From a virus, in IMG/VR virus record IMGVR_UViG_3300023174_000102, positions 1-64,000 of that record: a stretch of DNA of 64,000 bases; one strand, written 5' to 3'. The number at the start of each line of letters is the position of its first letter. Positions within the stretch are counted from its first letter, which is position 1. The notes beneath the pieces were generated by a model. The model had not been told where the DNA came from. It searched no databases and was given only the letters and a program-made list of their open reading frames with translations. Position numbers and translations under genes: made by a program. This document shows, piece after piece, positions 6,113-62,005 of this stretch.

Positions 6113-7723
6113 ATGGCAGTTAATAAGAATATAGGTGGAAGATCACAGTCAGCAAATGACTTCCTTGCACCGTATGCACCAACAATTGGGACAGCAACAG
6201 ATGTTGGAACAGGTCGAGCATATAATAATGGAGCAGCAACAGTAACATTTACTGGAACTGGTCCAAATGCAGCGACCTCCTATACAGTTTATGCTGTTGA
6301 AGATAATACAAAAACTGCCACTGGTGTATCATCTCCTTTGACTGTAACTGGTCTTGCATCAGGAACAAACTATACATTTAAGGTATATGGAACAAATACT
6401 CAAGGAGGCAGAGGTTCTGATTCATCAGCATCTAACCAAATAACAGCAACAACAGTTCCTCAAACACCAACACTTGGAGCAGTAACAAATACTTGTTCTG
6501 GTCGTGGATTTGGTGATGGCTTAATTACTGTTGCTATGACAGCAAACGGTACTGGTGGAAAAGCAATTTCATCATACTATGCAATTTCAAATGCTGGACA
6601 AAATGGATCAGGTGCATCTTCTACAGTAAATGTTACTGGATTGTCAGGAGGAACATCATATACATTCCAGGGCCGTGTTTCAAATGCAAATGGTAACTCT
6701 GACTTAACAGCATCATCAGGTGCAGTTGCTGCAACAACAGTACCTGCAGCACCAGGGGCTCCATCAGCATCATCACCATCATATGGAGTTGACTCTGTTT
6801 CATGGTCAGCACCATCAAATGGTGGTTCTGGAATTACAAATTACCGCTGGACATCTTCTGATGGAAAGGCTGGAGATACTGGATCAACATCAGTATCAGT
6901 AAGTCAGGAAGTAGGAACAGCACAGACATACAGTGTTTATGCAACAAATGCTTGTGGTAACTCTGCAACATCTGCTCCATCAGGAACTGTCACAACTACT
7001 TTCGGTGCATTCGGTGCATTCGGTGCTTTTGGTGCATTCGGTGCCTTCTCCGCATTCGGTGCATTCGGTGCATTCGGTGCCTTCTCCGCATTCGGTGCAT
7101 TCGGTGCATTCGGTGCCTTCTCCGCATTCGGTGCTTTTGGTGCATTCGGTGCCTTTGGTGCCTTTGGTGCCTTTGGTGCTTTCGGTGCTTACGGTGGTGG
7201 TAGCCGTATTTACTCAGTTGGTCCAGAGACCCTAATCCTAACTACAAATGGATATGTAATGGCAGCAGATCTTGAAATAGGTGACACTCTTATTTCAGCA
7301 GATGTTCCTGGATTAGGTATGTCATTTACAACAGATGAAATGAAAGCCTGGAGAAATAGTCCAGACAATTTAGAAATTGTTCCAGATAAAACAACAACAA
7401 TCAAGGCTATTGGATTATCAAATGCAACAGTTTCTGTGATGATAGATAATGAAACATACTCAGGAACTCACCATTTACTTGCAAAAAGAGATGGTGTGGC
7501 TCAGATGATTTTATCTGCAAACCTATTGACTACAGACAAGTTGTGGTCTACAAAGACAAACTCTTGGATCGATATAGTTGACTTGGTTATAACAGAGATT
7601 AGTCATCAGGTTGTTTCAATCAACTGTGAGCCACTAGATATGTTCTTTACAGAAAACTTCCTAGTCTATGATGGCTATCAGATAGATTACCCATTACCTA
7701 GCATAGATCCTACACTAGAATAA
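6113..7723 (+). CDS. Tail protein: fibronectin III domains, GAF-repeat stalk, Hint-like domain
   Basis: A 536-residue protein with AAAGGAGATA before ATG. Residues ~22-113, ~118-210 and ~212-295 look like three fibronectin type III domains (repeated LASGTNYTFKVYGTNTQG-type strand, then TTVP linker). Residues 297-360 are a tandem FGA tripeptide run with periodic FSA. Residues ~364-525 resemble a Hint (intein/hedgehog) domain: IYSVGPETLILTTNG and DLEIGDTLIS fit block A with Ser368 in the nucleophile place, SGTHHLL fits block B with its His pair, and CEPLDMFFTENFLVYDG fits the last block but ends VYD rather than VHN. Fibronectin domains and Gly-rich stalks occur in phage tail-tip proteins. Whether the Hint part cleaves itself is unknown. 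Confidence 0.75.
   Translation: MAVNKNIGGRSQSANDFLAPYAPTIGTATDVGTGRAYNNGAATVTFTGTGPNAATSYTVYAVEDNTKTATGVSSPLTVTGLASGTNYTFKVYGTNTQGGRGSDSSASNQITATTVPQTPTLGAVTNTCSGRGFGDGLITVAMTANGTGGKAISSYYAISNAGQNGSGASSTVNVTGLSGGTSYTFQGRVSNANGNSDLTASSGAVAATTVPAAPGAPSASSPSYGVDSVSWSAPSNGGSGITNYRWTSSDGKAGDTGSTSVSVSQEVGTAQTYSVYATNACGNSATSAPSGTVTTTFGAFGAFGAFGAFGAFSAFGAFGAFGAFSAFGAFGAFGAFSAFGAFGAFGAFGAFGAFGAFGAYGGGSRIYSVGPETLILTTNGYVMAADLEIGDTLISADVPGLGMSFTTDEMKAWRNSPDNLEIVPDKTTTIKAIGLSNATVSVMIDNETYSGTHHLLAKRDGVAQMILSANLLTTDKLWSTKTNSWIDIVDLVITEISHQVVSINCEPLDMFFTENFLVYDGYQIDYPLPSIDPTLE
7001..7189 (+). repeat. Tandem 9-bp (Phe-Gly-Ala) repeat with 36-bp higher order
   Basis: Twenty-one in-frame TTC/TTT-GGT-GC(A/C/T)-type triplets of codons, where every fourth unit at the left carries TCC (Ser) in place of GGT. 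That gives three nearly identical 36-base units (FGAFGAFGAFSA) followed by a run of plain FGA units. The repeat lies between the fibronectin and Hint-like domains and probably forms a flexible or aggregating stalk. Confidence 0.9.
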
Positions 7724-7837: not shown

Positions 7838-8560
7838 ATGGAAATAATGAATACTATTAAATTTCTTCAGATGTATCCTCAGTTGCTAAGCATTGTTCCA
7901 GAGCCAGAGCAGGGAACAAAGAATATTCCTACATGGTATAAAGAGCAGCCAGCAATTTCAGGAAACGATGTTCCTGATAGAGGAATTATGAGGCTCACTG
8001 TAAAAAAATGTCAAGCCTTCTTTGATGCTATGGCAATGGGGTATATTCTAAAAGTTCCATGTGATATATATATAGATACAACTGAGGGAAACTTAAATAT
8101 TCAACTCCCTGCTGGAATGAATAAATATTATTCCATGCTTATAAGTGAACATTCGGCAGAGCAGGTTTCTCACTTGCCTATAGATAAAGACATTTACTGT
8201 AATAAAATTTTAAGAATTCATCCTACATGGATGGTTCAGACTAATGCTGGATATAGTACATTTTTTACAAATCCAATCCATCAGAGTCCATCTCCATTAA
8301 AGGCAATTGATGCTGTTGTTGATACTGATAACTATTTTACAGACGGGCATCTATCATTCTTGGTAAAAAAGAATTTTAAAGGAACAATAAAGCAAGGAAC
8401 GCCAATGTCTCAAGTTTTTCCATTTAAAAGAGAAGAATGGGAAATGGAACTAGATAAAAACTTTCCAGAAAAGAAAATAGAAGAACAAAGAAACAAAGTA
8501 AGGTCTACTTTTCAAAACGGATATAGATTAAAGTTTTGGCAAAAGAAAACCTTTAAGTAA
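7838..8560 (+). CDS. DUF6065-like protein of unknown function
   Basis: A 240-residue soluble protein; the start could also be the ATG at 7847. It carries PTWYKEQPA near residue 26-35, a strand-rich middle with CDIYIDTTEG and PAGMNKYYSML, then RIHPTWMVQTNAGYST and FPFKREEWEME. The layout (short aromatic-rich beta protein, 'HPTW' segment, C-terminal charged tail) recalls DUF6065 proteins, which occur in phages and bacteria and have no assigned role; this match is from memory. It stands alone between a tail gene and the ribonucleotide reductase, with its own promoter and a terminator behind it, so it is an independently expressed unit. Confidence 0.5.
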   Translation: MEIMNTIKFLQMYPQLLSIVPEPEQGTKNIPTWYKEQPAISGNDVPDRGIMRLTVKKCQAFFDAMAMGYILKVPCDIYIDTTEGNLNIQLPAGMNKYYSMLISEHSAEQVSHLPIDKDIYCNKILRIHPTWMVQTNAGYSTFFTNPIHQSPSPLKAIDAVVDTDNYFTDGHLSFLVKKNFKGTIKQGTPMSQVFPFKREEWEMELDKNFPEKKIEEQRNKVRSTFQNGYRLKFWQKKTFK

Positions 8561-60562: not shown

Positions 60563-62005
60563 ATGATAATTCTTGGTATTAATGAAACTACACATGACGC
60601 TTCAGTATCTTTGATTAAAGATGGAGAAATACTTTTTGCTGGTCATTCCGAAAGATATAGCAAACAAAAAAATGACTGGTTCACAAACAAAGAACTTATC
60701 AAAAATGCGATTCAGTATGGCTACCCAGATCAGATTGCCTATTACGAGAAGCCTTTACTTAAGAAACTTAGAGTAAAGACTAGGGGTGGATTTGGTGGAG
60801 ACAAGCCATGGTTTGAGTCTACAGAACTTGGGGACCTGCCAAGAAAAAATTTTGGTCACCACTACTCTCATGCCTCAGCGGGATACTATACAAGTTCTTT
60901 TCATGATGCCGTTATTGTTGTACTTGATGCCATAGGAGAGTTTAATACATCTACAATTTGGGTTGGTGAAGGAGAAAAGATTAAACTAAAATATAAACAA
61001 AACTATCCAGTTAGTTTTGGTCTTTTCTACTCAGCATTTACACAACTTATCGGACTTATGCCAAACCAAGAAGAATACATTATGATGGGTATGGCAGCAT
61101 ACGGTGACTGGCGCAGATACTATAAAGAAGTTGACGAATATTTCCCTAAATATAATAAGCAAAAATACAACTTCCATAAAGGCATCCATGACTGGGGCAT
61201 GCCAATAACAGAGCAAGATAAATTTGATATTGCTGCTGCAGTCCAGGTTGTTTACGAACAAAGACTAAATGATTTTATGCATATGGCCTATTCAATTACT
61301 GGGAAAAAGAATTTAGTCTTCATGGGTGGTTGTGCGCTCAACTCATCAGCAAACACTTTGCTATGGAATATATTTGACATGGTTTGGATCATGCCAAACC
61401 CAGGTGATGCTGGATCATCATTAGGTGCAGCAGCAGCCCTGTACGGAAAGCATATCAACTGGAAGACCCCATACCTTGGCTATGATCTTGGCGGAGAATA
61501 CCCAGTCCAGCAAATTGTGGACGGTATATTGAAAGATGGAATCGTAGCAGTAGCATCAGGCAGAGCAGAGTATGGACCAAGAGCGCTAGGCAATAGAAGT
61601 ATCCTTGCGGACCCAAGAGATCCAAATATTAAGGACAAGGTTAATTTAATTAAACAGAGAGAGTTGTTTAGACCTTTTGCTCCAGTAGTTTTGGAAGAAT
61701 GTGCATCTACGTGGTTTGACATGGACTTTGCAAGTCCCTATATGCAGTATACAGTTAAGTGTCTTAAGCCAGAAAAAATTCCATCCGTTGTTCACGCTGA
61801 TGGGACATCTAGAGTTCAAACAGTAAATAGAGATCAACATAGGGGTTTGTATAGAGTTTTAAATAAGTTTTATGTTGAAACTGGTGTTCCAGTACTGCTC
61901 AATACTAGTCTTAACATAAAAGGTCAGCCACTACTTAATGATGAAACAGACATCATTAAATGGGAAAAAGAATACCTTACAAAAATTATTGGACCAAATT
62001 TATGA
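60563..62005 (+). CDS. NodU/CmcH-type carbamoyltransferase
   Basis: A 480-residue enzyme with TTTGGAGAG before ATG. It has the N-terminal Kae1-like fold (LGINETTHDASVSLIKDGEI, FGHHYSHASAGYY metal/adenylate motif, VVLDAIGEFNTSTIWVGEGE, MGGCALNSSANTLLWNIFDM) and the C-terminal domain with SGRAEYGPRALGNRSILADP and VLLNTSLNIKGQPLL. It transfers carbamoyl from carbamoyl phosphate through a carbamoyl-adenylate to a hydroxyl. In phages the target may be a modified base or a sugar. It overlaps the next gene by four bases (ATGA). Confidence 0.85.
   Translation: MIILGINETTHDASVSLIKDGEILFAGHSERYSKQKNDWFTNKELIKNAIQYGYPDQIAYYEKPLLKKLRVKTRGGFGGDKPWFESTELGDLPRKNFGHHYSHASAGYYTSSFHDAVIVVLDAIGEFNTSTIWVGEGEKIKLKYKQNYPVSFGLFYSAFTQLIGLMPNQEEYIMMGMAAYGDWRRYYKEVDEYFPKYNKQKYNFHKGIHDWGMPITEQDKFDIAAAVQVVYEQRLNDFMHMAYSITGKKNLVFMGGCALNSSANTLLWNIFDMVWIMPNPGDAGSSLGAAAALYGKHINWKTPYLGYDLGGEYPVQQIVDGILKDGIVAVASGRAEYGPRALGNRSILADPRDPNIKDKVNLIKQRELFRPFAPVVLEECASTWFDMDFASPYMQYTVKCLKPEKIPSVVHADGTSRVQTVNRDQHRGLYRVLNKFYVETGVPVLLNTSLNIKGQPLLNDETDIIKWEKEYLTKIIGPNL

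Follow-up and report, generated by a model that had tools for sequence, protein, structure and literature searches.

The Hint fold is horseshoe-like and all-beta, and both of its ends meet at the active site. Class 1 inteins have Cys or Ser at position 1, a TxxH motif in block B, and a terminal His-Asn that is followed by Cys, Ser or Thr at the +1 position. Class 3 inteins have neither Cys nor Ser at position 1 and carry a Cys at F:4 (the WCT motif). As a nucleophile, serine is weaker than cysteine. Among the BIL domains, those of the A-type have a conserved C-terminal His-Asn, those of the B-type are cleaved on the N-side and have the intein motifs other than the C-terminal one; only about 60% of inteins retain the Asp of block F (PMC7765530). 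Hedgehog carries out the first acyl shift only (PMC7664689).

Hint domains at the ends of phage tails are already present in annotation. The original prediction for this locus had pointed to other phage Hint tail proteins as a comparison, and homologous C-terminal domains with Cys1, TxxH and His-Asn were found when the domain of a distant relative was used as the query. These were located in cultured phages, chiefly jumbo phages, in proteins annotated either as tail proteins or as structural proteins of the virion. The protein studied here resembles the jumbo-phage tail proteins (Alexandravirus, with Erwinia pEa_SNUABM_33, Alexandra and Dickeya AD1; phage NCTB) and that of Alcaligenes phage Afa-NA1 in having a terminal Hint domain, a repetitive stalk and a place in a fibre cluster. 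Unlike those proteins, in which Cys1, TxxH and His-Asn are accompanied by a residue at -1 that is mostly Gly, it has Ser1, SxxH and Tyr-Asp, and in contrast to their collagen-like stalks, which gave no fn3 match, it has FN3 domains and an F-x-A stalk. Searches of a paper library on Hint and intein-like domains of phage tail proteins found no discussion of these proteins, and such papers may exist. What is new here is a conserved lineage with Ser, SxxH and Asp in these places, combined in the window (the whole stretch of 64,000 nucleotides that was analysed) with FN3 domains and the F-x-A stalk.

The record to which the window belongs is that of a freshwater virus of bacteria (98,310 bases, window included), with a gene set comprising a tape measure protein, portal, head protease, terminase and DNA polymerase. 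The gene for the Hint fibre is present in a single copy in this record and consists of one ORF with an ATG start codon, directly 5′ of which is AAGGAG. Because the ORFs upstream matched Mtd_N domains and tail-fibre families, the gene was placed within a fibre cluster, and its product is thus a protein with a C-terminal Hint domain encoded among fibre genes. Many relatives have in common the gene order of fibre genes, Hint-fibre gene, phrog_7084 gene and two long conserved ORFs. The gene and its reading frame were retained at dozens of related loci, which come from many metagenomes, and chance or artefact was rejected on this ground. A tblastn search of phage records with the full 536-residue protein gave no match at 1e-3, a search of NCBIfam returned nothing meaningful, and near the gene no promoter or terminator signal exceeded chance. 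Two scans of genome contigs found no relatives in cellular genomes, a weak result since the scans rely on short peptides. The coordinates of the gene and its features are collected in Table 1.

Table 1. Positions in the window of the Hint-fibre gene and of the features of its product.
Feature	Position	Strand	Description
Tail-fibre type protein	6113..7723	+	536 aa: N-terminal segment, three FN3-like domains, F-x-A stalk, Hint, short tail
N-terminal segment, residues 1-19	6113..6169	+	Roughly K-x-x-G-R-x-S-Q-x-A-N-D-F-L-x-P, kept across 17 aligned full-length relatives
Three FN3-like beta-sandwich domains, about residues 20-115, 116-210 and 211-296	6170..7000	+	Pfam, model and FN3 matches
Stalk, residues 297-359	7001..7189	+	21 F-[G/S]-A units from a 9-bp tandem repeat
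Linker YGGGSRIY, residues 360-367	7190..7213	+	Tyr367 is the -1 residue
Hint domain, residues 368-522	7214..7678	+	Predicted fold, structural matches, profile match
Ser368, place of intein Cys1/Ser1	7214..7216	+	Ser in 39/39 Ser-lineage representatives
Block B, Ser450-Gly-Thr-His453	7460..7471	+	SxxH replacing TxxH; first position Ser 35, Thr 4; His 39/39
Block F, I503-N-C-E-P-L-D509	7619..7639	+	F:4 Asp replaced by Ser502; Cys505 at F:7
Tyr519-Asp520, place of intein His-Asn	7667..7672	+	Asp in 39/39 representatives
C-terminal tail, 16 residues	7673..7720	+	Variable between relatives

The three fibronectin domains of the original prediction were borne out. Pfam fn3 recognized only the first of them (3.9e-11), and the full-length AlphaFold2 model, built from a 17-sequence alignment, showed three FN3-like beta-sandwiches over residues ~20-296 with high confidence, followed after an unstructured stretch by the Hint domain. 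Foldseek and VIA matched the first part of this model to FN3 tandems and also to single FN3 domains. The same prediction had made the rest of the chain a stalk of FGA units; the F-[GS]-A array is indeed present, but it covers only 63 residues, and FN3 makes up most of the chain preceding the Hint domain. The stalk DNA was identified by TRF as a repeat of 9 bp in 21.8 copies (7001-7196, score 217), within which a 36-bp higher-order unit has two exact occurrences. Residues 299-364 were predicted by AlphaFold2 to be without fixed structure, with a pLDDT in the stalk of about 25-35. The F-x-A stalks of relatives have 7 to 25 units, and other relatives have very different stalks, among them FxFTP, PNPGF, FPPFFP, GHGYGGF and polyproline repeats. 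Among these relatives the tip is constant while the N-terminal domains and stalks are swapped.

The assignment of residues 368-522 to the Hint fold is well supported by the predicted structure, as the original prediction had proposed. The AlphaFold2 model of the domain had a mean pLDDT of 90.6 and a pTM of 0.84. The best 50 Foldseek matches of this model in the PDB were without exception inteins, BIL domains or Hedgehog domains. VIA found 86 chains at Z ≥ 5, and among the 50 matches listed all were again intein, BIL or Hedgehog, with BIL2 of Tetrahymena (6y75) the best at Z 17.4, followed by a BIL domain of Clostridium thermocellum (2lwy; 17.2) and the Hedgehog domain (1at0; 16.3). By sequence profile alone the best match was likewise the BIL domain 2lwy (E 0.005). 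No Pfam Hint family matched the window protein at E 0.1, and Pfam Hint_2 matched five of seven close members with a best E of only 0.078; the family is too diverged for the Pfam Hint profiles, and the fold is the stronger test. The closest viral models in BFVD included A0A6J5NYB8, A0A6J5MFV5 and A0A6J7WKC1 (TM-score 0.77-0.82 for the Hint domain), proteins of uncultured Caudovirales annotated as 'Fibronectin type III' or 'Hint domain containing protein', the likeness being one of annotation and model only.

The register of the active site was taken from the VIA alignment with the Mtu RecA intein, in which residue 3 of the model corresponded to residue 1 of the intein and residue 155 to its last residue, 440. 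This alignment places Ser368 at position 1 and Asp520 at the terminal position. Ser368 had been named as the residue in the nucleophile place and the terminal His-Asn had been described as replaced, and both statements agree with the alignment, in which Tyr519-Asp520 occupies the place of His-Asn. The Thr-His-His that had been read as block B was out of register, the motif being formed by Ser450 to His453. His454 is not conserved and is replaced in relatives by Tyr, Trp, Phe and other residues, whereas His453 is invariant. Block F was numbered by our own alignment to the end of the Mtu RecA intein.

Conservation of these residues was assessed in 39 representatives of the Ser group, among which Ser1, the block-B His and the terminal Asp did not vary, down to about 32% identity with the window. 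The penultimate residue in this set was Tyr, Phe or His. Similar results were obtained with 101 unique domains drawn from all loci, most of the 39 representatives among them: all 73 Ser-type domains reaching residue 1 kept Ser and the block-B His, the block-B hydroxyl (Ser or Thr) was retained across them, and their terminal residue was Asp save in three close sequences with Asn. Both TCN and AGY codons were in use for Ser1, and on the tree the AGY label must have changed at least twice. With block F left out, 8 of 140 columns were invariant, including three of the five catalytic ones (P about 0.001, simple hypergeometric), a value that is only a guide since the sequences counted have common ancestry. 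Short peptides, most of them taken from block F, served as search patterns, which partly inflated the invariance of INCEPYD; Ser1, His453 and Asp520 fall outside the patterns of the main search. The term degenerate, which the original prediction had applied to the domain, is too strong, as the altered residues are conserved family-wide, which disfavours random decay.

Like a class 1 intein the domain has a nucleophile, Ser368, at position 1, with SxxH for TxxH in block B and Tyr519-Asp520-Gly521 for His-Asn and the +1 nucleophile. Our search of the literature for inteins ending in Asp found none. A class 3 intein was rejected, as the protein has Ser both at position 1 and at F:4 and its block-F Cys lies at F:7. 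The BIL domains 2lwy and 6y75 are among its best structural matches, and the absence of a +1 nucleophile from the window protein is a further likeness to them; its Tyr-Asp end departs from the His-Asn end of the A-type. It is nearer to the B-type, to which the combination of Ser1, SxxH and no His-Asn conforms loosely and by motif pattern alone. The Hedgehog C-terminal autoprocessing domain is, like that of the window, a C-terminal Hint domain, and a one-sided N-terminal reaction would be common to both; Hedgehog has a Cys nucleophile and a sterol-recognition region and transfers its ester to cholesterol, in contrast to the Ser of the window protein and the mere 16 residues that follow its Hint fold.

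The relationship of the Ser family to the Cys1/His-Asn family was supported by profile comparison (probability 98.7, E 2.6e-16), and Cys1/His-Asn tips were also present in contigs from the environment, where they sit on other stalks. In the maximum-likelihood tree the branch dividing the Ser and Cys groups had a support of 100/99; the root of this tree is not known, so that the direction of change was deduced from what is canonical in the superfamily. A tail-like protein (L188, IMGVR_UViG_3300029448_006778) has the NCEPYD block F of the Ser group alongside Cys1, TxxH and His-Asn and may be an intermediate of the two lineages by its sequence, its branch being long and its placement unsure. In phage NCTB a second, free-standing Hint-like protein is encoded directly after the Hint-tipped tail gene (L085:3959-4420); it is without the usual residues at position 1 and in block B and has His-Asn near its end.

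From the sequences and models we tentatively favour a Hint tip whose active site, altered but under selection, would carry out one-sided N-terminal processing. The Hint domain would be the C-terminal tip of the fibre, borne on a flexible low-complexity stalk. At the Tyr367|Ser368 junction, His453 of block B would promote an acyl shift from N to O, and the resulting ester would be hydrolysed or handed to another nucleophile. The Asp end would block Asn cyclisation, making the overall reaction closer to that of Hedgehog or a B-type BIL domain than to splicing. Splicing and Asn-driven C-cleavage are unlikely in the window protein because it has no terminal amide, penultimate His or +1 nucleophile, and, with the Asn lost, at most the N-terminal acyl shift remains. 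Position 1 and block B, which this shift requires, are both kept. The invariance of Ser1, of the block-B hydroxyl and His, and of a terminal Asp or Asn argues for a kept active site over a dead relic. Against the acyl shift, the F:4 Asp, which assists the first step, is replaced in the lineage by Ser, Thr, Gly or Asn (F:4 is also variable in the Cys1 lineage), the -1 residue, Gly in the other lineage, is now in most cases Lys or aromatic, and the nucleophile is Ser in place of the stronger Cys. The conserved residues could be kept instead for folding or binding.

A purely structural tip, which the original prediction had listed beside autocleavage and cross-linking, explains the data nearly as well and is nearly as likely. 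The Hint fold may have been kept as a stable module for adhesion or capping, in which no peptide bond is cut and Ser1, SxxH and Asp serve as a hydrogen-bond network or binding site. Loss of the F:4 Asp, and of the terminal Asn in nearly all members, is consistent with a non-catalytic tip, and a constant tip under exchanged N-terminal domains and stalks is expected of a receptor-binding or capping tip. Such a role accounts less readily for the positions of the N-terminal reaction being invariant or hydroxyl-keeping, and for the persistence of Ser1 through switches of codon class.

Two-sided self-processing, as in an A-type BIL domain or intein, would have both ends cut or the domain spliced out, with Asp replacing Asn and Ser at +1 in some relatives. 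His precedes the terminal Asp in 12 of the 39 representatives and Ser is at +1 in 12, many reading His-Asp-Ser in the manner of His-Asn-Ser, and three other sequences retain Asn. This reading is nevertheless improbable for the window protein, which has Tyr-Asp-Gly in that place and would have a C-extein of only 16 residues. More improbable still is a form of one-sided processing in which the Ser-[Ser/Thr]xxH-Asp tip, at the stalk's end, would form an acyl ester and covalently transfer the fibre to a nucleophile on the host surface or on another virion protein; if true, this would be Hedgehog-like attachment by a phage tail. Least probable is decay, by which a formerly active Hint domain would have been left as a relic without function; this would explain the departures from Cys1, the F:4 Asp and His-Asn, the canonical residues, but these departures are common to a whole well supported group, the replacement residues are invariant, the frames stay open throughout and the fold is predicted confidently.

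That a canonical lineage and a related one with conserved Ser, His and Asp occupy the same position provides a natural test of whether the Hint fold can be kept for a one-sided reaction or for a purely structural role. If the favoured N-terminal processing does occur, the tip in the window would represent self-processing at a phage tail tip.

Several further observations were made in the surroundings of these genes. The phrog_7084 gene is the next gene 3′ of the Hint gene in the window (7838-8560) and has a weak match to DUF6065; this adjacency is kept in many relatives, and the profile of the gene had no match among solved structures. The genes just 3′ of the Hint fibre in some relatives (L047:7036-7599, L012:6708-7373 and neighbours) include 2OG-Fe(II) oxygenases and a small protein that is GNAT-like by eye; that these products modify the fibre is a guess. 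The virus record encodes five PF13640 2OG-Fe(II) oxygenase matches above the cut-off, noted at 72005-73816 (+) and 88628-90553 (-) outside the window. A single contig, IMGVR_UViG_3300034066_000840 (L004 and L012), carries two distinct Hint-tipped fibre genes ~9 kb apart. Finally, a carbamoyltransferase-like gene (Nol-like, phrog_1601, 9e-105) is located at 60563-62005 of the window.
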